From Amycolatopsis methanolica 239 (GTDB lineage: Bacteria; Actinomycetota; Actinomycetes; Mycobacteriales; Pseudonocardiaceae): a stretch of 64,000 nt of DNA. This document shows, one piece after another, positions 4,638-22,457 of this stretch. The stretch is from NCBI RefSeq assembly GCF_000739085.1, contig NZ_CP009110.1, positions 248,001-312,000 of the forward strand. Direction: 5' to 3'. The notes beneath the pieces were generated by a model, which made no database searches, was not told the origin of the DNA, and saw nothing but the letters and a program-made list of their open reading frames with translations. Positions within the stretch are counted from its first letter, which is position 1. The number at the start of each line of letters is the position of its first letter. A program made the translations under genes and the position numbers.

Positions 4638-4859
4638 GGGACCTAGCGTAGCGAGCGGGACACGCGCACTCCGGGCAGGGCGGAGACGCCCGATTTGGCT
4701 GATCGTCGGGCGAAATCACGCTGTGCCACCGTGCATGACGGGAGCGTGCGCGGATCGGCGCGTACGCTCACGCCCGTGATCCGGTCGCTCGCCGCCGCGG
4801 ACCGCGTTGACCAGGCGGGGGTGCGCACCGGAACGGCCGGCGTGGGGAAGGGCGGCTGA

Positions 4860-6461
4860 ATGACCACTGTCGAGGCGCCGCGGCGCCGCACTCCGATCCG
4901 CGGCTGGGTGTGGGCGGCGGTCGCGGCGTTGCCGGTCGCGTTGACGGCCGCGTGGATCGGGCTCGGCCACGACGTCCGGTACGTGCTGGGCGGTCTGGAC
5001 GTCAGCCCGTTCGGCGCCACCGGCACGTTCGTGCACCGGCCGCTGGCCTACCGCTGGCTGGCCGAGGGGCTGAGCGTCTTCGACGTCGGTTCGGTCGGCG
5101 TCGGCGAGGGCCTGGTCCGGCTGGTCGCCCTGGCCCTCACGGCGGGCGCGGCGTGGTGGTTGCGCGCCGGGCTGCGTCAGCGGCTGCCGTCCGGGGAGGC
5201 GTCGGCGGTGGCCGCGGCCGTCGGGCTGGCTCTGGCGCTGGCCCCGAACTGGGACTTCCTGCAGCCCGAGTGGGTCGCGGCCGTGTCGGGTACCGCCGCG
5301 ATCGGGGCCGCGCTGCGGACGTCGAGCCTGCTCGCCGGGCTGCTGCTGGCGCTGGCGGTGCTGGTCGGGTACGCCACCCTGCCGGTGGCGTTGATCGCGC
5401 TCGGCGTGATCGCCGTGCTGGACCGGCGGCGTACGGCGCTCGCCGGGATCACCGCCGTGGTGTCCGGGCTCGCGCTGTTCGGGTTGAGCCTGCTCGCGCC
5501 GCGGGAGTGGCGGTGGCTGCGGGAGGCGTGGCTGCTCAACGACGGGATGGCCCGCGACCTCGGCTCGATCGCGCGGTTCATGGCCAACGAGGCCATGCTC
5601 GTGCCGCTGGTCGCGGTGCTGCCGGCGAGCCTGGTGGTGCTGGTGCGCGTGTCCCGGCGACGCTGGGCCTGGCCGGTGCTGACGGTGCTCGCGCTGGCGC
5701 TCGTGCTGGGTGCGGCGGTGGTGCAGGGCCAGTGGTTCCAGTACCACCTGGCCGCCTGGGTCCCGCTGGCCGCGGGGCTGTGGGCGCTCGCCGTCGCGCG
5801 CTGGACGCTCGTGCACGGGCGCCCGCCGTGGGCGCTGGTCGGGGCGACGGTCGTGGTGCTGTTCGCCGCACGTGTGTGCCTGGGCGCGTCCTACGCGTGG
5901 CGCTCCGGCCACGGCGCGCTCGCGTACGGGCTGCTCGCCGGCCTGGTCGTCGCGGCCACGCTGGCCTGCGCGTTCGAACCCGGCCGCGGCGGACGGCAGG
6001 TGCTGTCGGTGCCGGTGCTGGTCGGGGTGCTCGCCCTGACGGTGCCCATCCTGCCGACCACGCCGTACTCGTTCGACGGCGTGCACGCCGACTACACCAA
6101 CGCCGGCCGCGTCGACATCGAGCACAAGTTCACCGAGGAGATGCTGGCCGTCCGCGACCGCATCGGCGCGGACACCCCGGTGACCTACCTCGCGTTCGGC
6201 GACATCGCCTACTTCACGCGCAACCCGACGCCGTGCCGCTACCCGTCGCCGGCCCACCTGCGGCGGGGCATGGACCTACCGTCGGTGCGGGACACGGCGA
6301 GCTACGCGGAGAACCTCGCCTGCCTGTCCGACCCGTCCGTCCGGTACGTCGTCGTCCAGCCGCTCTGGATCGACGCCGCCGGCCTGGTCGAGGGCCGGTT
6401 CGACTGCACACAAGCGATCGTCAACGACGACGTCGTGGTCTGCCCACGCGCCGACAACTAA
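4860..6461 (+). CDS. Polytopic membrane protein, GT-C glycosyltransferase-like
   Basis: A 533-residue protein with roughly 10-12 hydrophobic segments up to about residue 400 and a hydrophilic C-terminal domain of about 130 residues (from PYSFDGVHADYTNAG on) with four cysteines. This layout, many membrane helices plus an outer C-terminal domain, fits GT-C enzymes using polyprenyl-phosphate sugars. By position (between wzm and bpa) it matches Rv3779, annotated as a membrane glycosyltransferase, but sequence identity cannot be checked here. The ATG has a good ribosome site (GGGGAAGGGCGG) about six bases upstream. Substrate unknown; a role in cell-wall glycan assembly is inferred from neighbours. 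Confidence 0.75.
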   Translation: MTTVEAPRRRTPIRGWVWAAVAALPVALTAAWIGLGHDVRYVLGGLDVSPFGATGTFVHRPLAYRWLAEGLSVFDVGSVGVGEGLVRLVALALTAGAAWWLRAGLRQRLPSGEASAVAAAVGLALALAPNWDFLQPEWVAAVSGTAAIGAALRTSSLLAGLLLALAVLVGYATLPVALIALGVIAVLDRRRTALAGITAVVSGLALFGLSLLAPREWRWLREAWLLNDGMARDLGSIARFMANEAMLVPLVAVLPASLVVLVRVSRRRWAWPVLTVLALALVLGAAVVQGQWFQYHLAAWVPLAAGLWALAVARWTLVHGRPPWALVGATVVVLFAARVCLGASYAWRSGHGALAYGLLAGLVVAATLACAFEPGRGGRQVLSVPVLVGVLALTVPILPTTPYSFDGVHADYTNAGRVDIEHKFTEEMLAVRDRIGADTPVTYLAFGDIAYFTRNPTPCRYPSPAHLRRGMDLPSVRDTASYAENLACLSDPSVRYVVVQPLWIDAAGLVEGRFDCTQAIVNDDVVVCPRADN

Positions 6462-10993: not shown

Positions 10994-11905
10994 TTAGCCC
11001 AGGTTGTTGGTCCCGAAGGTGTCGCACCGGGCGGGGTTCCCGGTCTGGAAGCCGGTGGTGAACCACCGTTCCCGCTGGGCGGACGTGCCGTGCGTGTACT
11101 GGGACTCGTCGACGTGGCCGCCGCCGAGGTTGGACTGGATGTAGTCGTCGCCGATGCGGGACGCGGTGTCCAGTGCGCGGTCGATGTCGTCCTGGGTGAC
11201 CTCGGTGATCAGCGGCCGCCCGGTCGACGACGGCGTGGTCGTCGCGTGGTTGGCCCACACGCCGGCGTAGCAGTCGGCCTGCAGTTCGAGCCGCACGGAA
11301 CCCGAGGTCGGCCCCGTCTCGTTGCCGACGCGCCGGGACGTGCCGAGCAGGTTCTGCACGTGGTGGCCGTACTCGTGCGCGAGCACGTATGCCTCGGCGA
11401 ACGTGCCGCCCTCCGCGCCGAAGCGGGTGCGCAGCTCCTGGTAGAAGGACAGGTCGATGTAGACCTCGGAGTCGGCGGGGCAGTAGAACGGCCCGACGTC
11501 GGAGGTGGCGCTGCCGCAGCCGGTGCGCACGCCGCCGCTGAAGAAGTTCGTCTGCGCGGTGCGGTAGGTGCGGCCGGAGCGGGCGAACTGGTCGCTCCAG
11601 TAGTCCTGGATGGAGTTGACGATGGCGACGATCGCGCAGTCGTGGTTGGCGTTGGCGTCCGCGCCGGTGCGGCACTCCTGCGCCAGCGAGCCGTTGCTGA
11701 CCTGCTGACCGGCGCCGAGTTCGCCGAGGCTGCCCGCGCCGCTCGGGCTGACCCCGCCGATCTGGGAGAGCACGAAGTAGATGATCACGCCGACGATGCC
11801 GAGCCCGCCGCCGCCGAGCGCCACCCGGCTCCCGATGCCCCCACCGCCGCCGCGGAGGTCGTCGACCTCGGACGTGTCCAGCCCGGCGCCTTCGTCAAAC
11901 CTCAC
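10994..11905 (-). CDS. YpfJ-type neutral zinc metallopeptidase, membrane-anchored
   Basis: A 303-residue protein with one N-terminal membrane segment (about 30-48) after a Gly-rich stretch, then an extracytoplasmic domain with HEYGHH (177-182) and a downstream LELQADCYAG motif likely to give the third zinc ligand. This is the putative neutral zinc metallopeptidase family (YpfJ), substrates unknown. Several cysteines (for example in ECRTG, HDC, RTGCG, YCP) suggest disulfides outside the cell. The GTG at 11905 is chosen for its gggag ribosome site. Longer upstream starts would run into a perfect palindrome. Confidence 0.88.
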   Translation of the reverse strand: MRFDEGAGLDTSEVDDLRGGGGGIGSRVALGGGGLGIVGVIIYFVLSQIGGVSPSGAGSLGELGAGQQVSNGSLAQECRTGADANANHDCAIVAIVNSIQDYWSDQFARSGRTYRTAQTNFFSGGVRTGCGSATSDVGPFYCPADSEVYIDLSFYQELRTRFGAEGGTFAEAYVLAHEYGHHVQNLLGTSRRVGNETGPTSGSVRLELQADCYAGVWANHATTTPSSTGRPLITEVTQDDIDRALDTASRIGDDYIQSNLGGGHVDESQYTHGTSAQRERWFTTGFQTGNPARCDTFGTNNLG

Positions 11906-13015: not shown

Positions 13016-14191
13016 TCATTTCGCCGGTCGCCAGAGCAGCGCCACTCCGTGCCCGGGCAGCAGCCAGGACCGCACGTCCAGATCGCTCAGCTCCTCCGGC
13101 TTCAGCCACCGCGCCGACGCCGTGTTCGAGCGGAACGTGAACGGCACCACCCGGAATTCGAACGCGTCCCCGCCCTCGATGTCCAGCTCCTTGGCGGACA
13201 TGGAGATCCGCTCGACGTAGCACGGGTACGGCGCCTGCCAGTAGCAGTAGCCGTCGTCGATGCGTTGCAGTGCGGTCGCCCGCATCGACAGGCGCTCGAT
13301 CGCGGCCACCGTGTGGTCGTCGCCGGCGATGTCGGACAGGTCGCACTCGAAGATGCGCAGGTCGGCGAGGTGGTCGAGGGTGTTCTGGCGGGGGAGCGGG
13401 CCCATGTTGGTGCGGAAGAACGTCAGGTAGTCGGCCCACTGCTGGTACTTCACCTCGCGCAGTTCCAGCTTGCTCGACGACGCCACGTGGTGCCTGCCCT
13501 CGCCGTCGAGGTACTCGATCCGCAGTCGTACGGACGGCAGCATGTCGTCCACCGAACTTTCGAACAGCGAGCTGTCCGGCACGAACCACAGCTCGAACAG
13601 CGGCAGCTGGCAGCCGGCGCTGATGGAGTCCCGCAGCAGCGCGTTGCACGTCGCGAAGATGATGAACCGGTCGACGTGCACGTTCTTCTTGAAGCTGTAG
13701 GTCACCGCGGTCGTCAGGTGGTAGATCTCATGGTCCACCGCGCTCAGCTCGAACGTCACGCCGGTGTGGGTGCTGATCGTCAGGTCCCCGCCGAGCGGGC
13801 GCAGCCCCTCGCCGCCCAGCACGCCCGTGACGACGTCGCGGTTGGCCTCGTTGTCGCCGTAGATCGAGTGCAGGAAGGTCTCCATGACCTGCTGGGGGAG
13901 CAGCGCCTCGACGATCCGCGGGCCGGAGATCCGCGCCATCTCGGTCACCAGCCACGGGTGCACGAACAGCTCGTACCCGCCGATCGCCGCGCCCGCCACG
14001 ACGATCAGCGGGAACACCGCCTCCAAGACGTCGTGCAGGGCCGTCGGCCACCCGGGCGCCGCATGCCAGGACACGACCGTGAGCAGCGCGGCGACGCCGG
14101 CGAGGACCAGGACGAACGCGAGACGAAGGACGGGCGGGCGTGGTTTCGGGCGCGTATCAGCACCAGGCCGCTGTTTCTCCCCAGCTGTCAC
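13016..14191 (-). CDS. Hypothetical membrane protein with two N-terminal helices and a large cytosolic domain
   Basis: A 391-residue protein I do not recognise. After a basic, Pro-rich leader there are two hydrophobic segments (about 22-42 and 56-76), followed by about 300 hydrophilic residues rich in beta-type sequence. There is no clear enzyme motif. The two-helix hairpin with a large C-terminal part suggests a membrane-anchored cytosolic domain. It lies between tRNA-Ser and the GntR gene, read leftward, with no obvious operon partner. Confidence 0.6.
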   Translation of the reverse strand: MTAGEKQRPGADTRPKPRPPVLRLAFVLVLAGVAALLTVVSWHAAPGWPTALHDVLEAVFPLIVVAGAAIGGYELFVHPWLVTEMARISGPRIVEALLPQQVMETFLHSIYGDNEANRDVVTGVLGGEGLRPLGGDLTISTHTGVTFELSAVDHEIYHLTTAVTYSFKKNVHVDRFIIFATCNALLRDSISAGCQLPLFELWFVPDSSLFESSVDDMLPSVRLRIEYLDGEGRHHVASSSKLELREVKYQQWADYLTFFRTNMGPLPRQNTLDHLADLRIFECDLSDIAGDDHTVAAIERLSMRATALQRIDDGYCYWQAPYPCYVERISMSAKELDIEGGDAFEFRVVPFTFRSNTASARWLKPEELSDLDVRSWLLPGHGVALLWRPAK

Positions 14192-14266: not shown

Positions 14267-15040
14267 TCACTCCCGGTGCCAGCGTGGCTCGTCCTCCAGC
14301 GCGTACGTCGTGAGCGTGGCCCGCTCGCCGGGCGGGGTGCCGGTCTGCGCGACCAGATCGCTGTACAGGCCGAGCAGGTGCGTGGCCATCGCCGCGCGGG
14401 CGCCGCCCTCGTCGCGGCGCTTGAGGAACCACGTGACCTGGTTGTGGTCGTTCGCCGAGCGGACGTGCACCTCGGAGCTGCCGTAGCTGTTGCGGCGGTA
14501 ACCCCGGAGCTGCGGTACCAGCGACCGGTACAGCTGGTCCAGCAGTTCGTTGTGGCTGGCCCGCACCACCGCCGAGTGGAAGTCCTCGTCGGTCTGCAGC
14601 AGTTCGTCCTTGTCGTCGATGGACGCGGACTGGTGCAGCTTCGCCAGCTTCGCGATGTCGTCCAGCTCGCCCTGCGTCGCGCGGGTCGCGGCCAGGCTCG
14701 CCGCGGTCGCCTCCAGCGCGATCCGGACCTCCATCAGGTCCGCGTCGCTGACGCGCCGGTCGAACACCAGCGGCTCGTCGTGCTCGGATACGTCGGTTGA
14801 CCGGACGTACCAGCCACGGCCCCGCATGACCTCGACCACGCCCTGGAGCTGGAGCCGCTGCAGCGCGGTGCGCAGCGAGCTGCGGGCCACCGCCATCCGC
14901 TGCGCCAGTTCCGGTTCGGTGGGCAGCCGGTCGCCCGCCTTGAACTTGCCGCTGCGGATCAGCGACCTGATCTTGTCCTCGATCAGTTCGGGCAGCGGCT
15001 TGCGCGTGTTCGGTGAGAGAGCCCAGCTCTCGTCATCCAT
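14267..15040 (-). CDS. GntR-family regulator, FadR subfamily (FCD ligand domain)
   Basis: A 257-residue regulator. The N-terminal winged helix (about 15-85) has the GntR features LIRSGKFKAGDRLPTEPELA and SSLRTALQRL. The C-terminal FCD helical domain includes EVRIALEATAASLAA and conserved aspartate/histidine positions (DEDFHSAVVRASHN, and HLLGLY near the end). The ATG at 15040 is chosen for its GAGAGG ribosome site. It is divergent from a small membrane-protein gene, and a perfect 12-bp inverted repeat lies between them, probably its operator. It may control the peptide-modification cassette to its right. Confidence 0.88.
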   Translation of the reverse strand: MDDESWALSPNTRKPLPELIEDKIRSLIRSGKFKAGDRLPTEPELAQRMAVARSSLRTALQRLQLQGVVEVMRGRGWYVRSTDVSEHDEPLVFDRRVSDADLMEVRIALEATAASLAATRATQGELDDIAKLAKLHQSASIDDKDELLQTDEDFHSAVVRASHNELLDQLYRSLVPQLRGYRRNSYGSSEVHVRSANDHNQVTWFLKRRDEGGARAAMATHLLGLYSDLVAQTGTPPGERATLTTYALEDEPRWHRE

Positions 15041-15113
15041 CGTCAACCTCTCGCGAGCTCTTGGGTTCCCGAGCTTCCGAAGACCATAAGGCCAAACTGA
15101 TGCCAGACGCAAG

Positions 15114-15145
15114 TTGTCTGTCAAGCGTCGTCACTTGACAGACAA
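15114..15145. promoter_or_regulatory. Perfect inverted repeat, probable GntR operator, with two divergent -35 boxes
   Basis: TTGTCTGTCAAG (15114-15125), an 8-base spacer, then CTTGACAGACAA (15134-15145). Each arm contains TTGACA on one strand, pointing outward, so likely -35 elements for both the GntR gene and the rightward small membrane-protein gene lie in the operator. A repressor bound here would block both promoters. Confidence 0.75.
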
Positions 15146-15236
15146 CCGACAGCGCGGCGATCATACAACTGCCGTCGAAGGTGAGCGGGCAGGCCACCAG
15201 CCGCGCCGCCACCTGGCCAGTGAGGAGGTGTTCGCT

Positions 15237-15395
15237 GTGAACTCGGAATCTCTGTTCGCTGTGATTTTCTTGGTAGCTCTCGGGGTGACCATCATCGGAT
15301 GGCGGACTGTCATCGTGATGACCCTGACGGCGGGTTTCGTTCTGGCTGTGCTGGGGTTCGCGCAGCTCGTGTCGTTCCTCGGAACAGGCGCGTAA
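15237..15395 (+). CDS. Small two-helix membrane protein, 52 residues
   Basis: A GTG start at 15237 has an excellent ribosome site (GAGGAGG, seven bases upstream), which marks this as a real gene. The product is almost entirely hydrophobic, with two predicted membrane segments (about 5-20 and 25-48) separated by a short GWRTV turn. No family is recognised. It is the first gene to the right of the probable GntR operator and precedes the HExxH protein gene by 131 bases. It could be an anchor, immunity or export helper for the neighbouring peptide system, but that is inference. Confidence 0.7.
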   Translation: MNSESLFAVIFLVALGVTIIGWRTVIVMTLTAGFVLAVLGFAQLVSFLGTGA

Positions 15396-15422
15396 GCGCG
15401 GACGACAAGGGGGTGGCTCCGT

Positions 15423-15436
15423 CTGTTGTCTGACAG
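15423..15436. promoter_or_regulatory. Candidate second regulator site upstream of the HExxH gene
   Basis: CTGTTGTCTGACAG contains the same TTGTCTG core as the perfect inverted repeat at 15114-15145 and is itself symmetric at its ends (CTGT...ACAG). It lies about 90 bases before the HExxH protein start, upstream of a possible -10 (tactct near 15474). Confidence 0.4.
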
Positions 15437-15526
15437 CCGCCCCCGGTGTGTGGGGGCCAGACCGCCTGGTTGTACTCTCGCGCGGTCCATGGCTGTTCCC
15501 TCCTAGCGGAAGAAGCCGGCGCTCGG

Positions 15527-16780
15527 ATGTACTCCAGACCTGCCTGGCCGGATGCCACCACCGTGCACGCGGCGCTGGCGCCCGCCCACGCGGTGATCGA
15601 GGAGCGCCGCGCGCTGTACCGGCTGGGGCTCGATCTGCTGGCTCCCGGCCACGAGCCGGTTCCGGACGCCCAACTCGACAACCCCCTGTTCCGCTTCCGG
15701 ATCGGGGAGGCTCTGGCCGGTCGTCTGCCCTACGTGGACGCCGACGACGACCTCGGTCCGATCACGACCGAACTGCCCGCCGGCCCGGTCTCGATCCGGG
15801 TGGCCACCGGCGCTGATGCGAACGACCGCCTCGCCGAGGCGATGCGGGTGATCCAGACGCAAAGCCTGCCCGGTCGCCGCCCGCCGCGGCTGCTGACCGG
15901 CGACGACGAGGCACTGGCCACGGTCGCGGCCGGTCTGCGCAAGGTCCGCGAGGTCAGCCCGGCGCTGGCCGACGACCTGCTCGCGCACGTCGGCCTGCTG
16001 GTGGTCCTCGATCCGGCGACCTCCGGCGGCCTGATCTCCGCGTCGTCGCGGCTCTTCCCCGGGCTGGTCCTGATCGACCGGCCGTCGTCGCCCTACGAGG
16101 TCGCCGAGGCGATCATCCACGAGGGCGCGCACGTCAAGCTGTTCGACTTCGCCATCACGCGGAACTTCCTCGGCGCCGATGCGGCGGAGGGCCGGGTCTT
16201 CCGGCCCTCCTGGTCGTCGGCCGCGTGGCCGGTGGAGCAGGTCCTCGCCGCGTTCCACGCCTACACCTGCCTCGCCCAGTTCGCCCAGGACGTGGAGCGG
16301 CAAGGGGAAATGTCCCGGCTCGGCCCGGATTCCCTGCTGTCCCGCGCTCGTGAGCGCGCCACCGAAATCGGCCGCTGGCTGCTCGGCGAGGACGACGCGC
16401 TGGAATTCGACGCCAGGTGGCTCCTGCGCACCTTGATGTGTGATGAGACTGGACCCGGACAACTGTCTCCGGTCACCCGTCCGGTGCTGTCCGGCCACTA
16501 CGCGCTGGATCCGCTGCTGCGGCTCGCCCGGATGGAGGCCACCGGCCGGGTGCTCGCCGGCCGTCCCGGCGACCCACCGGAATTGCATTGGCTCGACGGG
16601 GAAGCGGCTGATCTTGCCGTCGAGCTTAGCCAGGCCCCGGCGGGGAAGTCCCTGTCGGAAATCGGTGCCGAACGTGCGACCGTGCTCGGCGCGCTGGTGG
16701 AAGCGACCTTGGTTCGTGCCGCTCCGCGCGGAGGAGTACTGTCCTCTTCGGACGGAACATTTGCGTCGGAAGGAAACTGA
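15527..16780 (+). CDS. HExxH-motif peptide-modification protein (putative alpha-ketoglutarate-dependent peptide beta-hydroxylase)
   Basis: A 417-residue protein with the signature IIHEGAHVKLFDF; the HEGAH metal motif is at about 198-202. This matches the HEXXH-motif family found in RiPP (peptide natural product) clusters, recently described as alpha-ketoglutarate-dependent peptide beta-hydroxylases and not proteases. The rest is helical with no signal peptide, so it acts in the cytosol. Its stop overlaps the start of a 68-codon ORF (TGATG), as expected for a modifying enzyme made with its peptide substrate. The ATG at 15527 is preferred but its ribosome site is weak; an in-frame GTG at 15446 would add 27 residues. 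Family assignment is from the motif and context. Confidence 0.72.
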   Translation: MYSRPAWPDATTVHAALAPAHAVIEERRALYRLGLDLLAPGHEPVPDAQLDNPLFRFRIGEALAGRLPYVDADDDLGPITTELPAGPVSIRVATGADANDRLAEAMRVIQTQSLPGRRPPRLLTGDDEALATVAAGLRKVREVSPALADDLLAHVGLLVVLDPATSGGLISASSRLFPGLVLIDRPSSPYEVAEAIIHEGAHVKLFDFAITRNFLGADAAEGRVFRPSWSSAAWPVEQVLAAFHAYTCLAQFAQDVERQGEMSRLGPDSLLSRARERATEIGRWLLGEDDALEFDARWLLRTLMCDETGPGQLSPVTRPVLSGHYALDPLLRLARMEATGRVLAGRPGDPPELHWLDGEAADLAVELSQAPAGKSLSEIGAERATVLGALVEATLVRAAPRGGVLSSSDGTFASEGN

Positions 16781-16986
16781 TGTCAGTCCAGTGGGACCCT
16801 CGCCGGAGACACGAAAACCGGCCCGGCGAAACAATGGCCCCTCGACCGGAAAGTGGGGTTGTTTCCCCGAATCCGGGCCTCGGCCGTCAGCCTTACGGTC
16901 AGCCGATCACGCGAGTGGATTTCTTCCGCCGCATGCCCACCGGCGGAACCGCCTACCTCAAGCCCGCCGACTCCAACGACGACTGA
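16780..16986 (+). CDS. Small peptide, candidate substrate (precursor) of the HExxH enzyme
   Basis: A 68-residue ORF whose ATG shares one base with the stop of the HExxH gene and has an AGGAA ribosome site six bases upstream. It is rich in Arg, Pro and Gly, has no Cys and no membrane segment. The C-terminal part (about 44-68) holds the likely core residues: ITRVDFFRRMP, TGGTAYLKP and an acidic SNDD end. Coupled synthesis with a putative peptide hydroxylase makes it the best precursor candidate. No known precursor family is recognised, and no protease or transporter gene is adjacent. Confidence 0.55.
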   Translation: MSVQWDPRRRHENRPGETMAPRPESGVVSPNPGLGRQPYGQPITRVDFFRRMPTGGTAYLKPADSNDD

Positions 16987-17037: not shown

Positions 17038-18285
17038 TCAGATCGTCCCGTTCGCCATCGCTTCGCAGCTGCGCAACACGACTGCCGCGGCGCGACGCTC
17101 CCCGGCGCTCAGCTCCGGGTTCTCCGCCTGGTCCCGCCACCGGCGCACCGCGGGCAACACCTGGTCCGGCCCGAGCCGCGCGGCTCGTGAAGTTCCGCCG
17201 GCGCCGAGCAATCGCAGGGCTTCCGCTTTCAGCTCCGCCGAAAAAGACGTCCGTCCGGTTTGCAGCGCGGCCACCAGCCGCAGCTCCCGGAAATCGTGGG
17301 CGCCCGCCAGCAACCGCTCCAGTTCGGCGGCCAGCCCGGCCGTGGCGGGGCGCGGTTCTATGCGCAGCACCACTTCCAGCCCGATCAACGCCGACCGCGC
17401 CTTGAGCACGTCCCGCCGCGCCACGAAGTACCCGTCGATCGCCTCACGCAGGTCGGCCAGGCCGCTGCGCGGCACGAGCTGACCGGCCAGCGCAGGCAAC
17501 GTGTCCGCGCCACGGCGGATCAACGTCATCGCCAGCCGCACGCCGAAGATCCCGAACCGCGCGAGCAGCGCGGCGCGGTCGGACGCGGCCACCGGCGCCG
17601 GGAACTCCGCGGCCGCGAACCGGTCCGCCGACAGCAGCCGCGGCTCCAGCTCCTCCCGCGGCACGGTGGCGAGCGTGCGCAGTACCGCGAACTCCGGCTC
17701 GGTCAACGTGCGCGCCGCCAGCGCGGGCAAGCCGGCCACCGGCACGACGTCCTGGCACAGCCCGGCGACCTCCGGCGCGACCCGGTACCGGCGCGCGACC
17801 TGCCGGGCCGAGATCACGGCGTCCACCCGGCCGCCGCCGAGTTCGTCCGCCCGCGACAACACGATCAGCGCGTTGACGGCCGCCGCTCGTGCGACCGGGT
17901 GGTCCTGCAGCGTGTGCAGAAAGGACAGATCGGCTCCGGACGGGCGCCGCACGAGGTAGAGGACCGCGTCGGCGTCCATGCAGATTCCCTCGATCGTGCT
18001 GGGCGCCGCGCCGCCGTCGATCGCCGGCGTGTCCATCAGCATCAGCTCGTCCTGCGACCGCCCCGGCGAGGTGCGGAACCAGGTCATCTCGCCCTGCGGC
18101 TGCTCCCCGGCCAGCGCGGCGAGCAGCGTCGACCGGCCCGATCCACGCGGCCCGACCACCGCCAGCCGCAGCGGGTCGTCGAACCGGGTGAGCTGGCGCT
18201 GCAGCCAGCTCGTCGCCCGCGGGCTGTCCTGGTAGACGTCGAGGGCCTCCTGCAGGACCGCGTGCGTCCTCGCGGCCAGGCTCAC
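17038..18285 (-). CDS. IniC-like dynamin-related GTPase
   Basis: A 415-residue dynamin-family-like GTPase, the downstream partner of an IniA-like protein. Its P-loop is GPRGSGRST (45-53), with arginine in place of the usual lysine. DTPAID (85-90) is the switch II region, and the G4 motif is SRADE in place of NKxD. It is shorter than the partner and has no clear membrane segment. Mycobacterial iniC lies downstream of iniA and is linked to tolerance of cell-wall drugs. The GTG start overlaps the iniA-like stop by four bases (GTGA). Nucleotide binding may be weakened by the altered motifs. Confidence 0.78.
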   Translation of the reverse strand: MSLAARTHAVLQEALDVYQDSPRATSWLQRQLTRFDDPLRLAVVGPRGSGRSTLLAALAGEQPQGEMTWFRTSPGRSQDELMLMDTPAIDGGAAPSTIEGICMDADAVLYLVRRPSGADLSFLHTLQDHPVARAAAVNALIVLSRADELGGGRVDAVISARQVARRYRVAPEVAGLCQDVVPVAGLPALAARTLTEPEFAVLRTLATVPREELEPRLLSADRFAAAEFPAPVAASDRAALLARFGIFGVRLAMTLIRRGADTLPALAGQLVPRSGLADLREAIDGYFVARRDVLKARSALIGLEVVLRIEPRPATAGLAAELERLLAGAHDFRELRLVAALQTGRTSFSAELKAEALRLLGAGGTSRAARLGPDQVLPAVRRWRDQAENPELSAGERRAAAVVLRSCEAMANGTI

Positions 18286-20081
18286 GCGGTGATCCCCCGC
18301 TGGGCGGGCAGCTGCGCCGGGGTGGCCAGGGCCTGGGCGCGGCGGCGCAGCACGTTCAGCTCCTCCATCATCCGGCGGATCTCGTTCGCCCGGACCGTGC
18401 GGCGGGTCGTGTCGTCGTCGATGGCCTGCTTGAACGTCTTCGCGGTCGCGGTGATCTCGCCGCGCAGCTCGTCGGCGACGCCGTTCAGCCGGTCGCGCAG
18501 CGCGCGGTGGATCTGCCGCGCGGTGTCCTTGCTGTGCTTGCCGTAGCGCAGGAAGAAGTCGTCGACGTACCGGTGCGCGGCGGTCTTCGCGGCGTGCTGG
18601 CGCCGCTTGAGCCGGTTGCCGCGCTCCTCGAAGACGCTCTTCGCGCCGAAGGCCGCACCCGCGCCGAGCGAAATCGGGTTGATCAGCGGCAGGCCCGCGA
18701 TCGTGGTCGCGAGGCCGAACATCAGCAGACCGCTGTAGGACCCGCGCATCCCGACGAACAGCTTCTGCCCCACGCTGAACCGCTCGACCCGCGGCATCCG
18801 CAGGTCGCCGACCGCGTCACCGGGCACCTCGCGCGGCAGCGAGTCGGGCAGCGCGTCCTCGCGGTGCGGCGCGACCTGCCGCGCGATCTTGCGGGCGATC
18901 CACTCGAACCGGTCGAGCAGCCACTCCGAGTTCGTCTCCGCGACCGTGGTCAGGTTCTCCCGCAGCCACTCCTCGAACTCGGGCCACGTCTTCGCCGGGT
19001 CGGCGGTTTCGAAGTACTCGTCGACCTCGACCAGGATCTTGCGCGTCCGGTCACGCAGGTCGAACTCGACGTCCGAGATCAGGTCGGACACCTCGTCGGA
19101 CAGCAGCGTCTGCCAGCGGTTCGCGTCCCGTTGCAGCTTCTCCAGCCGCCGCCCGGCGGCGTGCCACCGCGCGACCGCGTCGCCGTTGTCCGGCTGCTGC
19201 GTCGCGGCGAACTCGTCGGTCAGTTCGTTCTGCAGCGCCTCGACGGTGGTCGTGCTCAGGGCGGCGACCGAGCGCCGGGCCAGCAGGTCCGCCTGGCCGG
19301 GCAGGTCCTGGTGCAGGCACTTGACCAGCTCGCCGAACCCGGACTCGGCGTTCAGGGCCTGGTCGCCGGTGCGGGCCGCGGCCAGCCGCAGCGCGGCGGA
19401 AACCGGGATCAGCGACGCCATCAGCCCGCGCTGGTCCAGCCGGTTGCGGTTGCGCTGCGCGACCGTCCGCCAACCGGGCACCAGGTCGATCTTGGTGAGC
19501 ACCACGAGCACCGTCGGGCACAGCCGGACGACCTGCTCGAGCAGCTGGATCTCCGACGCCGACAGCTCGCTCGTCGCGTCGGTGGCCATCAGCACGGCGT
19601 CCGCCGAGTCGACCGTCTCGATCGCCGCTCGCGGCGGCGTGTCGACCAGCGCCAGCCCGCCGGCCAGCAGCGCGCGGGGCAGGCCCACCTCGGCCCGGAC
19701 GACCGGTGGACCGCTCACAGCGACCGCTTCCCGATTCGCCTGGCCGGTCACCGCCTCCACCGGCACCGGCTGCCGCGCCGGGCCTTCGATGGCCCGCGGA
19801 CCGGCCGTGACGACGGCCGCTGTCGGCTTCTCGGCGTGCGTCACGACGGCCGGGACCGTGGTCGTGGCGTCCTCGCCGACCGCGCACACCGGCGCGTTGA
19901 CCAGCGCGTTCACCAGCTGGCTCTTGCCCTGGCCGGTCTCGCCGATCACGACCACCCGCAACTTCTCGTCGAGCAGCTGGGCTCTGCGTCTGCGGATGCG
20001 ATCGGCCAGGTCCGGGCGCCGTTGGGTGGCGCAGACGTGGGCGGTGTCGTCCAGTACGTCGAGCCAGGGTGGTGCGAGCAC
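18282..20081 (-). CDS. iniA: IniA-like dynamin-related GTPase
   Basis: About 599 residues from a GTG at 20081. The GTPase domain has P-loop GETGQGKS (47-54), DATTTVP (switch I), DTPP (G3) and TKIDL (G4). A long helical stalk follows, with a hydrophobic stretch in the last third (about 440-475: YSGLLMFGLATTIAGLPLIN) that fits the membrane-touching tip of bacterial dynamins such as IniA. IniA remodels or fuses membranes and is induced by cell-wall stress. The start is uncertain: no clear ribosome site is seen, and an ATG at 20156 would place the 5' end inside the iniB terminator hairpin. Confidence 0.85.
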   Translation of the reverse strand: MLAPPWLDVLDDTAHVCATQRRPDLADRIRRRRAQLLDEKLRVVVIGETGQGKSQLVNALVNAPVCAVGEDATTTVPAVVTHAEKPTAAVVTAGPRAIEGPARQPVPVEAVTGQANREAVAVSGPPVVRAEVGLPRALLAGGLALVDTPPRAAIETVDSADAVLMATDATSELSASEIQLLEQVVRLCPTVLVVLTKIDLVPGWRTVAQRNRNRLDQRGLMASLIPVSAALRLAAARTGDQALNAESGFGELVKCLHQDLPGQADLLARRSVAALSTTTVEALQNELTDEFAATQQPDNGDAVARWHAAGRRLEKLQRDANRWQTLLSDEVSDLISDVEFDLRDRTRKILVEVDEYFETADPAKTWPEFEEWLRENLTTVAETNSEWLLDRFEWIARKIARQVAPHREDALPDSLPREVPGDAVGDLRMPRVERFSVGQKLFVGMRGSYSGLLMFGLATTIAGLPLINPISLGAGAAFGAKSVFEERGNRLKRRQHAAKTAAHRYVDDFFLRYGKHSKDTARQIHRALRDRLNGVADELRGEITATAKTFKQAIDDDTTRRTVRANEIRRMMEELNVLRRRAQALATPAQLPAQRGITA

Positions 20082-20106
20082 GCGGAGGAGTGTGCCGTGT
20101 CGTGAC

Positions 20107-20156
20107 CAAAACGTGAAGCGGCGGGGTCCGTTCTGAGACGAACCCCGCCGCTTCAT
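20107..20156 (-). terminator. Terminator/attenuator between iniB and iniA
   Basis: A 14-bp perfect stem (20114-20127 with 20142-20155) has a 14-base loop. On the minus strand it is followed by CGTTTT. It lies 36 bases after the iniB stop, so it should limit read-through into iniA and iniC and give much more iniB than iniAC transcript. Confidence 0.85.
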
Positions 20157-20190
20157 CGGTGAGTGGTAGCCGCGCCGTTGCGGCTACCGG

Positions 20191-22251
20191 TCAGTGCCCC
20201 AGGGGCAGGTCGCCGTGCAGGTTGTCGAGGTCGGCGGCCTCGGGCAGCGGCGCGTGGTTGACCGGGCCGAGCGTGTCGACCAGCGGGCTGTCGGTCACGG
20301 AGACGACCTCCTTGACCGGGTCCGTGGTCAGCGCGTGCTCGACGTTGCCGGTGACCTCCGGCAGCGGGTTCGCGACCGGCAGGTGCGGCAGGCCCTGCGG
20401 CAGCTCGGCGCCGAAGTGGACCGGCAGGTCGCCGGGCGCCTCGGCCGGGATCTCGGCCGGGACGGCGGCGGGCAGCACGGTCGGCACGCCGGGGGCGGCG
20501 GGCAGGTCGGAGGCGAGGTCCGCGGCCTGGTGGCCACCGTCGGAGATCGCGGTGCCTGCCTGGGCACCGGCGTTGGCGACCAGGTCACCGGTCTGCGCGC
20601 CACCCAGCGTCAGGTACTCGCCGAGGGTGGCCGAGTTCTGCGCGACGCCGCCACCGACCAGGTCACCACCGATCGAGATGTAGTCGGCGATCGTGCCGGC
20701 GGCCGGCTCGGCGCGGCCGAGGACGTCCGAGTCGAGCGAGCCGGCGAGGTCGCCCGCCTGGTCGAAGCTCGGGACGTCGGCGGGCAGGTCGGCGGGGGTG
20801 CCGTCCACACCGAGGGTGTAGGTGCCGAGGGCCGAGTCGGTGCGGCCGCCCGCGAGGACGGCGTCCTCACCGGCGGTCAGGCCGCCCTGCAGTTCACCCT
20901 CGTTGTTCTCGACGGCGAAGCCGCCGGTGAAGCCCTCGGTGCTGCCCGCGGCGCTGCCGATGAAGGCGCCCGCCGGGGTGCCCGCGGTGCCGGCGACACC
21001 GGCGCCCTCCTGGGCGGCGGCGGCCGCGGCGGCGCCCTCGGCCAGCTCGCCCTCGTAGGACACGGTGGTGGCGTAGCCGTCCTCGGAACCCGCGCTGGCG
21101 GTGTCGACGCGGCCGACCGCCGGGATGTCGAGGTCGGGAGCGGTGAACGGCTCGTCGCCCAGCGACGGCGCGGCCACCGGCAGCGAGCCCAGCGTGTCGA
21201 GGTCGACGGGCAGGTCGCCGGTCTCCGGCAGCTCGGTCAGGCCGACGGCCTCGCCGAGGGCGGCGACGTCCTCGGCACCCACCGGCAGGGAGCCGGCGTC
21301 GAGGGGCAGCGCGTTCGTGTCGAGGGGCAGGCCGCTCCCGTCGACCGGCAGGGCGGTCAGCTCGCTCGGCACGTCGGCGCGCTCGGCGCCCACGGTCGGC
21401 AGGGAGGGCAGCTCACCCAGGGCGGGCAGCTGGACCGGGAGCCCGGGCAGCGAGCCCTGCAGGCCCTCGACCTCGGGCAGCCCCACCGGCAGCTCGCCCA
21501 GCTCGGGGGCCGCGCCGGTGAGCGCCTCGGTCGGCAGGTCGTTGCGGGCGTCCAGCGGGAGGCCGTCGACCGCGGGCGGCTGGAGCGGCAGGTCGCTCAG
21601 CGCGGGGAGCTCGACCGGGATGTCACCCAGCTCGGGCAGCTCCACCGGCAGCGCGCCGGTGGGCAGGCTGTCCGTGGGCAGCGCGTCCAGCGGCAGCTGG
21701 TCCACCGGCAGCGCGTTGACCGGCAGGTCCTGGCGGGCCGGGACGTCGAGCGGGAGGCTGTCGACGGCGGGGACGTCCAGCGGCAGGTCGCCCAGCCCGG
21801 GCAGCTCAACCGGCAGGTCGCCCAGCTCGGGCAGCACCTGGGCGGTCGGGCCGCCCAGCAGCTCCTCGCCGAGCGGCAGCGCGGAGGTGTCGACCGGCAG
21901 GGCCGGGGCGTCGACGGGCAGGTCGGCGCGGGCCGGGACGTCCAGGGGCAGCTCGGGGGCCGCGACCGGCAGCGCGTCGGCCGCGTCCGCGACGGCCTGC
22001 AGCTGGGCGATGGCGCCCTGCAGGTCGGTCACGTCGGCGTCCAGCGGCAGCGCGGACAGGGCGTCGGCCAGCGGCGCGGGCGCGTAGTCGGCGACCAGCG
22101 GGGCGACTTCCTGGATGTCCTGCGGCGTGACGTCGCTCAAGCCGGCGGCGGCGAGCGCGCTGGTCGGGTCGGCGGCGAACGCCGACCGGGCAGCCTCGTC
22201 GTTCAGCAGGGTGAGCACGAATTCGTGCAGGTTCTGGGCGGGGAGAGACAA
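20191..22251 (-). CDS. iniB: IniB-like protein with long Leu-Pro-Asp repeat region
   Basis: A 686-residue protein starting at a TTG with a GGAG ribosome site seven bases upstream. The first ~50 residues (NLHEFVLTLLNDEAARSAFA and SDVTPQDIQEVAPLV) match the helical IniB N-terminal domain. Residues ~95-375 are a degenerate repeat of LPLD/LPVD/ELGDLP units, and the rest is Gly/Ala-rich. IniB is the first gene of the isoniazid-inducible iniBAC operon; its molecular role is unsettled. The protein is strongly acidic and low in complexity, with no signal peptide seen. Confidence 0.85.
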   Translation of the reverse strand: MSLPAQNLHEFVLTLLNDEAARSAFAADPTSALAAAGLSDVTPQDIQEVAPLVADYAPAPLADALSALPLDADVTDLQGAIAQLQAVADAADALPVAAPELPLDVPARADLPVDAPALPVDTSALPLGEELLGGPTAQVLPELGDLPVELPGLGDLPLDVPAVDSLPLDVPARQDLPVNALPVDQLPLDALPTDSLPTGALPVELPELGDIPVELPALSDLPLQPPAVDGLPLDARNDLPTEALTGAAPELGELPVGLPEVEGLQGSLPGLPVQLPALGELPSLPTVGAERADVPSELTALPVDGSGLPLDTNALPLDAGSLPVGAEDVAALGEAVGLTELPETGDLPVDLDTLGSLPVAAPSLGDEPFTAPDLDIPAVGRVDTASAGSEDGYATTVSYEGELAEGAAAAAAAQEGAGVAGTAGTPAGAFIGSAAGSTEGFTGGFAVENNEGELQGGLTAGEDAVLAGGRTDSALGTYTLGVDGTPADLPADVPSFDQAGDLAGSLDSDVLGRAEPAAGTIADYISIGGDLVGGGVAQNSATLGEYLTLGGAQTGDLVANAGAQAGTAISDGGHQAADLASDLPAAPGVPTVLPAAVPAEIPAEAPGDLPVHFGAELPQGLPHLPVANPLPEVTGNVEHALTTDPVKEVVSVTDSPLVDTLGPVNHAPLPEAADLDNLHGDLPLGH
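21150..21960. repeat. Degenerate in-frame repeats inside iniB
   Basis: Units of roughly 10-14 codons encode variants of L-P-L/V-D/E and LGDLPVELP. On the plus strand they appear as recurring ggcagctcgaccggcaggtc-like segments. Periodicity is irregular, so slippage followed by divergence is likely. Confidence 0.8.
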
Positions 22252-22457
22252 GGAATATCTCCGCGGATCTCGGGGGGGTGAAAACGGACAAGGCGTCCAG
22301 GGTGCACCGCAGGACGCCTCGGCTGAAGTTAGTGACCGTTCCGTTACCACGGCATCGGGGATCGGTCCGCAACCTTCGACGGGGTCGCCGGGGCAAGCGG
22401 TTAGGGGATTAGGGGATGTGACCCCAACGGGCGACTTTGGTACGAAGGGGCGACCCC

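Follow-up and report, generated by a model that had tools for sequence, protein, structure and literature searches.

The locus raises the question of whether a HExxH-motif protein (HEX) and the 68-residue peptide (PEP) encoded directly behind it form a small RiPP-type system. Both are encoded in the window, the whole stretch of 64000 nucleotides that we analysed, from a genome of the genus Amycolatopsis (7.24 Mb, single contig). An earlier note, made from the letters of this DNA, had described a 417-residue HEGAH protein, a TGATG overlap with a 68-codon ORF that has its own ribosome site, and a 52-residue two-helix protein with a ribosome site, divergent from a GntR regulator. We found all of these in place (Table 1), the stop codon of HEX overlapping the ATG of the 68-codon ORF at 16778–16782. 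The observation is thus confirmed, and the interpretation placed on it is partly supported. Our preferred reading, to which we give a probability of roughly 0.7, is a compact RiPP-type cassette in which HEX would oxidize the PEP core, under GntR regulation and with the membrane proteins M391 and MEM as partners.

Table 1. Positions of the cassette features in the window
Feature	Position	Strand	Remarks
M391 (391-aa membrane protein)	13016–14191	-	Conserved unit member; two predicted N-terminal helices, C-terminal beta-rich domain
GntR-family (FadR/FCD) regulator	14267–15040	-	Divergent from peptide operon
Operator, perfect inverted repeat	15113–15146	.	Between divergent promoters
Ribosome site GAGGAGGT of MEM	15222–15229	+	Read directly
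MEM, 52 aa, two hydrophobic helices, conserved GWRT loop	15237–15395	+	GTG start
HEX, predicted aKG-HExxH-type peptide beta-hydroxylase, 417 aa	15527–16780	+	
HEGAH motif, codons 198–202 of HEX	16118–16132	+	H/E/H invariant in 22 relatives
RRE-like (PqqD-like winged helix) C-terminal domain of HEX, residues ~317–401	16475–16729	+	Predicted fold
Ribosome site AAGGA of PEP gene	16770–16774	+	Read directly
PEP, 68-aa precursor-like peptide	16780–16986	+	
Conserved PEP core, residues 42–62, PITRVDFFRRMPTGGTAYLKP	16903–16965	+	Alignment and codon comparison

The family of HEX was assessed by profile searches and by structural comparison of its AlphaFold model (pLDDT 89). HEX matches TIGR04267 (IPR026337, aKG-HExxH-type peptide beta-hydroxylase) over residues 133–302 with 91 bits, where the cut-off is 40, and is the sole member of that family in the genome; no Pfam family, PqqD included, matched it. 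The motif residues H198, E199 and H202 are invariant across the 22 relatives, and a profile of these relatives, when run against PDB sequences, found only SjiH (22nu/22ob) and ChlH (8s5f). The model aligns with ChlBH 8s5f at Z 21.0 (3.4 Å over 260 residues) and with SjiH 22ob at Z 20.1, whereas M1 (zincin) peptidases reach only Z 5–6. There is no fused radical SAM/SPASM domain, the 417 residues carrying only the HExxH match. By sequence signature and predicted fold, HEX is an Fe(II)/alpha-ketoglutarate HExxH peptide hydroxylase, the activity itself being one that we infer. The earlier note had placed the protein in the HEXXH-motif family, and the TIGR04267 match together with the ChlBH/SjiH fold bears this out; on the same two grounds we rejected an unrelated metalloprotease.

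The C-terminal residues ~317–401 of HEX fall outside the HExxH oxygenase fold and are predicted to adopt a winged-helix fold, as in the RREs of PqqD, TbiB1 and PbtF. The best RRE structure match was TbiB1 (5v1v; Z 8.0 over 73 residues), and TigE, PqqD (5sxy), the PbtF RRE (8t19) and MccB (3h5a) scored Z 6.5–7.5, with the last three at 6.5–6.8, values of 8 or below being the range in which the structure-comparison tool warns of common arrangements. Winged-helix domains of carbamoyltransferase and ribosomal oxygenase gave nearly equal Z values, so the fold alone is no proof of an RRE. Despite the predicted likeness in fold, sequence similarity to RREs is barely detectable: Pfam PqqD (PF05402) matched the C-terminal domain in one of 11 relatives (E 0.0083), and PDB sequence searches with the domain found no RRE. 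The case for calling this predicted domain RRE-like is weak to moderate; such a domain speaks in favour of the RiPP interpretation given in the earlier note.

Whether the small ORF is a gene at all can be answered from its distribution and its codons. A profile search of 32 genomes found PEP in all 23 that carry HEX and in none of the nine that lack it; within the genus, where 19 genomes were searched (own included), all 18 with HEX also had PEP. The gap between the two genes ranges from -1 to +198 nt, with the core retained throughout. Conservation is confined to this core, V-D-F/W-F-R-R-M-P-x-G-G-T-x-Y near the C terminus, the N-terminal ‘leader’ being poorly conserved between genera. Codon comparison across Amycolatopsis gave 1085 synonymous and 393 non-synonymous differences for core residues 42–62, as against 814 and 3071 respectively for linker residues 10–41, and the core is therefore under strong purifying selection and the linker is not. 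These data show that the 68-residue ORF is a real gene under selection, invariably encoded next to HEX and conserved at its C terminus, as the earlier note had anticipated; the co-occurrence in 23 of 23 genomes and the codon selection on the core led us to reject a chance overlap. PEP is apparently a new peptide family. A scan of 307 Actinomycetes genomes with the core pattern returned one match besides the window's own, which we attribute to chance because it lies antisense to a transposase. In genus g32 the number of PEP genes per genome varies from one to three, some lying at the far end of the unit, so that one enzyme may serve several peptides. The extra g32 paralogues are on the other side of the M391 gene, at L063:2643–2834, L064 (oriented) 4645–4881, L065:2882–2962 and L277:10320–10376.

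PEP, MEM, HEX and GntR occur together in 18 of the 19 Amycolatopsis genomes (again counting the window's own), and this recurrence, with the codon selection on the PEP core, indicates that the arrangement of ORFs is not due to chance. Together with M391 they make up a five-gene unit present in Amycolatopsis and two further genera of Pseudonocardiaceae and rearranged in a fourth, all four hosts being genera of related soil bacteria. Genus g427 has the full unit, with identities of 63% (M391), 59% (GntR) and 43% (HEX), together with a 52-residue protein, PEP and the operator. The HEX–PEP pair is found in g32 and g427, and also under a different gene order in genome G020, where GntR, M391, HEX and PEP all lie on one strand, in two copies and without the 52-residue protein. 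Directly downstream of the second cassette in G020 there are GntR-like fragments (L041:9378–9738, +), probably a decayed duplicate. All four genera retain M391 in the unit, and three of them MEM. The earlier note had thought of a minimal system with few parts; the unit largely agrees with that proposal but is broader, five genes in place of three, since it includes the conserved M391 and a GntR that looks dedicated, with its own operator. As the earlier note had said, radical SAM is absent, and across the compared loci we found no conserved transporter or leader peptidase near the cassette.

Downstream of PEP lies an iniBAC-like operon (17038–22281, -) with two dynamin-type GTPases (IniC/IniA-like) and a repetitive LPVDxLPL protein. 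In all same-genus loci but L052 it adjoins the cassette, and in the other genera it does not; we therefore rejected these neighbours as part of the system. Weak PADLOC matches to LeoA/LeoBC were confined to the GTPases of this operon, and PADLOC models matched none of HEX, PEP, MEM, M391 and GntR.

M391 had no match in Pfam, NCBIfam, PADLOC or PDB sequences, and a search of 396 genomes of the phylum gave, outside Pseudonocardiaceae, one weak partial match besides its own. Its predicted beta domain resembles those of M1/M61 aminopeptidases and ribophorin at a middling Z of 8–9, which we read as a common arrangement. With no sequence family and structure matches that are middling only, membership of M391 in a known family was rejected. 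A second, partial or diverged copy of M391 directly adjoins the first in L030 and L036. The roles of M391 and MEM suggested below are guesses from topology and conservation. The operator is a perfect inverted repeat with 13-base arms, TTGTCTGTCAAG-N8-CTTGACAGACAA, the arms extending to GTTGTCTGTCAAG. TTGACA is present in each arm, on both strands, as would fit -35 elements of divergent promoters that overlap. Across Amycolatopsis the operator is conserved, and the five genomes of the genus that were tested have it once each; the GntR protein therefore looks like a dedicated local repressor.

The cassette falls within the known aKG-HExxH RiPP enzymes. Standalone members have been published as acting on RiPP precursors (PMC12636437, PMC13060819, PMC12707348), with His, Asp, Phe, Gln and Pro as hydroxylation targets (PMC13060819) and with both Gln hydroxylation and oxidative cleavage among the reactions (PMC12636437). 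The HExxH oxygenase fold (Z 21) and TIGR04267 are shared by HEX with the aKG-HExxH domain of ChlH/ChlB (8s5f) and with the rSAM-fused HExxH proteins of FxsB/triceptide type; in those systems, however, a radical SAM cyclase is fused to the enzyme or works alongside it, whereas the present cassette is without radical SAM and has the RRE-like domain instead. Closer in organization are PflC/PosC (PMC12636437), likewise standalone with no protease nearby, which act on the C-terminal part of their precursor, as proposed for HEX. The pfl system differs in having NHLP-type leaders, an MNIO-nitroreductase, a GNAT and transporters (PMC12636437), and its ARMD/poly-Gln target is unrelated in sequence to the FRRMPxGGT of PEP. 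PesO of nitrilobacillin (PMC13060819) and BipH/BpmH of biphenomycin (PMC12707348, PMC12257519) are also aKG-HExxH hydroxylases of RiPP clusters, performing Pro or side-chain hydroxylation, but they are tailoring enzymes of larger multi-enzyme clusters with MNIOs and peptidases, whereas HEX is the sole modifying enzyme conserved with PEP. We found no paper that joins HExxH, GntR and a precursor peptide, or that prints the PEP core.

We also scanned IMG/VR with a degenerate core pattern, using the reversed pattern as a control. The pattern gave 22 matches and the control 74, so that the match count alone means nothing and most pattern matches are chance. Residues around the pattern nevertheless set apart a distinct group of six viral contigs (L121, L122, L124, L131, L178 and L193), in which the cores score 23–44 bits as against 18 or less for chance matches; the A2 profile matched within single contigs at E 2e-9 to 4e-12 on four of the six. 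Given the size of IMG/VR, single cores of 38–44 bits are not conclusive, and the firm cases are the tandem pair of L121 and the two proviruses, in which similarity extends past the core. The former is a predicted 94-residue protein (L121:2966–3247, +; IMGVR_UViG_3300028831_000280) with tandem cores VDFYKRMPTGGTAY and NWFRRMPNGGTVY. The latter are proteins of ~157 and 169 residues from proviruses of Amycolatopsis (L122/L118 in G017 and L124/L119 in G012), in which a PEP-like core lies close to the N terminus and the C-terminal parts are unrelated; both hosts carry the cassette. In addition, contig L178, with 43% G+C, places a core outside high-G+C phages; its 51-residue phage protein (L178:6439–6594, -; IMGVR_UViG_3300003911_000004) has MIKKVEIFQRMPTGGTVYEK followed by cysteines. 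Core-like motifs are also seen in viral proteins of L193 (~11469–11510, +; VDWFRRWPNGGTVY) and L131 (-, reverse-complement position ~3399; VQIFRRMPTGGGTV). No HEX was found on any of the four motif-bearing contigs searched for it, and no significant match for the core came from phage and plasmid collections or PHROGs when these were searched for sequences related to PEP or to the phage proteins. As the motif occurs on phage contigs without HEX, the core may have a HEX-independent role, and these copies are unexplained by a simple reading of PEP as a substrate; they may serve as decoys, mimics or a shared binding module.

In the oxidation reading that we favour, HEX would bind PEP, perhaps through its RRE-like domain, and would oxidize, most likely beta-hydroxylate, one or more residues of the core, which may form a beta-hairpin around PxGG. 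That PEP is the substrate and hydroxylation the reaction is what we infer from the published family; because the residues known to be hydroxylated by its members are Asp, His, Phe, Gln and Pro, the best candidate sites would be F49 and P53, both invariant, or residues near them. GntR would keep both transcripts repressed and let go on a signal, probably a small carboxylate. At the membrane, the modified peptide might meet M391 and MEM as partners in its reception, immunity or export. If a leader is removed at all, this would fall to enzymes encoded elsewhere.

HEX might instead be a zincin-type protease that cleaves PEP at the GG of PTGG-TAY, giving a short peptide signal that is sensed at the membrane, with no hydroxylation. 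A distantly zincin-like fold (M1 peptidases, Z 5–6), the oxidative or hydrolytic peptide cleavage by the family member PflC (PMC12636437) and the conserved GG within the core are compatible with this. We consider it improbable all the same, as the aKG oxygenases ChlBH and SjiH are the closest folds by a wide margin, the T-x-Y after the GG is as conserved as what precedes it, and phage proteins contain the motif internally, which is not what a simple cleavage site would look like. A shade less doubtful is that PEP is a partner of HEX and not its substrate, namely a small regulatory or adaptor peptide that binds a conserved cellular protein through its hairpin, with HEX tuning PEP or being regulated by it. 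The conservation of the core resembles a binding module more than a variable natural-product core, the same module is present in phage proteins without HEX, and no conserved protease or transporter is nearby; yet PEP and HEX co-occur strictly, HEX has an RRE-like domain, and the motif is nearly absent from other Actinomycetes (the 307 genomes with their one chance match besides the window's own).

The viral motifs also bear on whether the cassette responds to phages, with core-bearing phage proteins as decoys or mimics of PEP. Core-like motifs are present on six viral contigs, with a tandem pair in one small protein, and two of these contigs are proviruses whose Amycolatopsis hosts carry the cassette. 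Against this, none of the five proteins has a PADLOC family, almost all Amycolatopsis genomes tested have the cassette, located at a fixed site beside the iniBAC-like operon and not in variable islands, and the motif-bearing phage contig of 43% G+C probably infects a host without the cassette; we consider a phage response very unlikely. An equally long shot is that host and phage have the PEP core in common as a portable hairpin module: the cassette would make and modify a peptide for binding to a factor of the host or the phage, and unmodified or tandem cores would be carried by phages and proviruses to capture HEX, M391 or the target of the peptide.

If oxidation of the PEP core by HEX is indeed what the cassette does, it would be among the smallest aKG-HExxH peptide-modification systems, consisting of an enzyme with an apparently built-in recognition domain, a peptide, a regulator and two membrane proteins. 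With so few parts, it could readily be reconstituted and would help to find out what standalone HExxH enzymes do, and the conserved PEP core would provide a defined substrate motif for testing. In addition, the phage look-alikes raise the question of whether a RiPP-type peptide may take part in the interaction between actinobacterial hosts and their phages.
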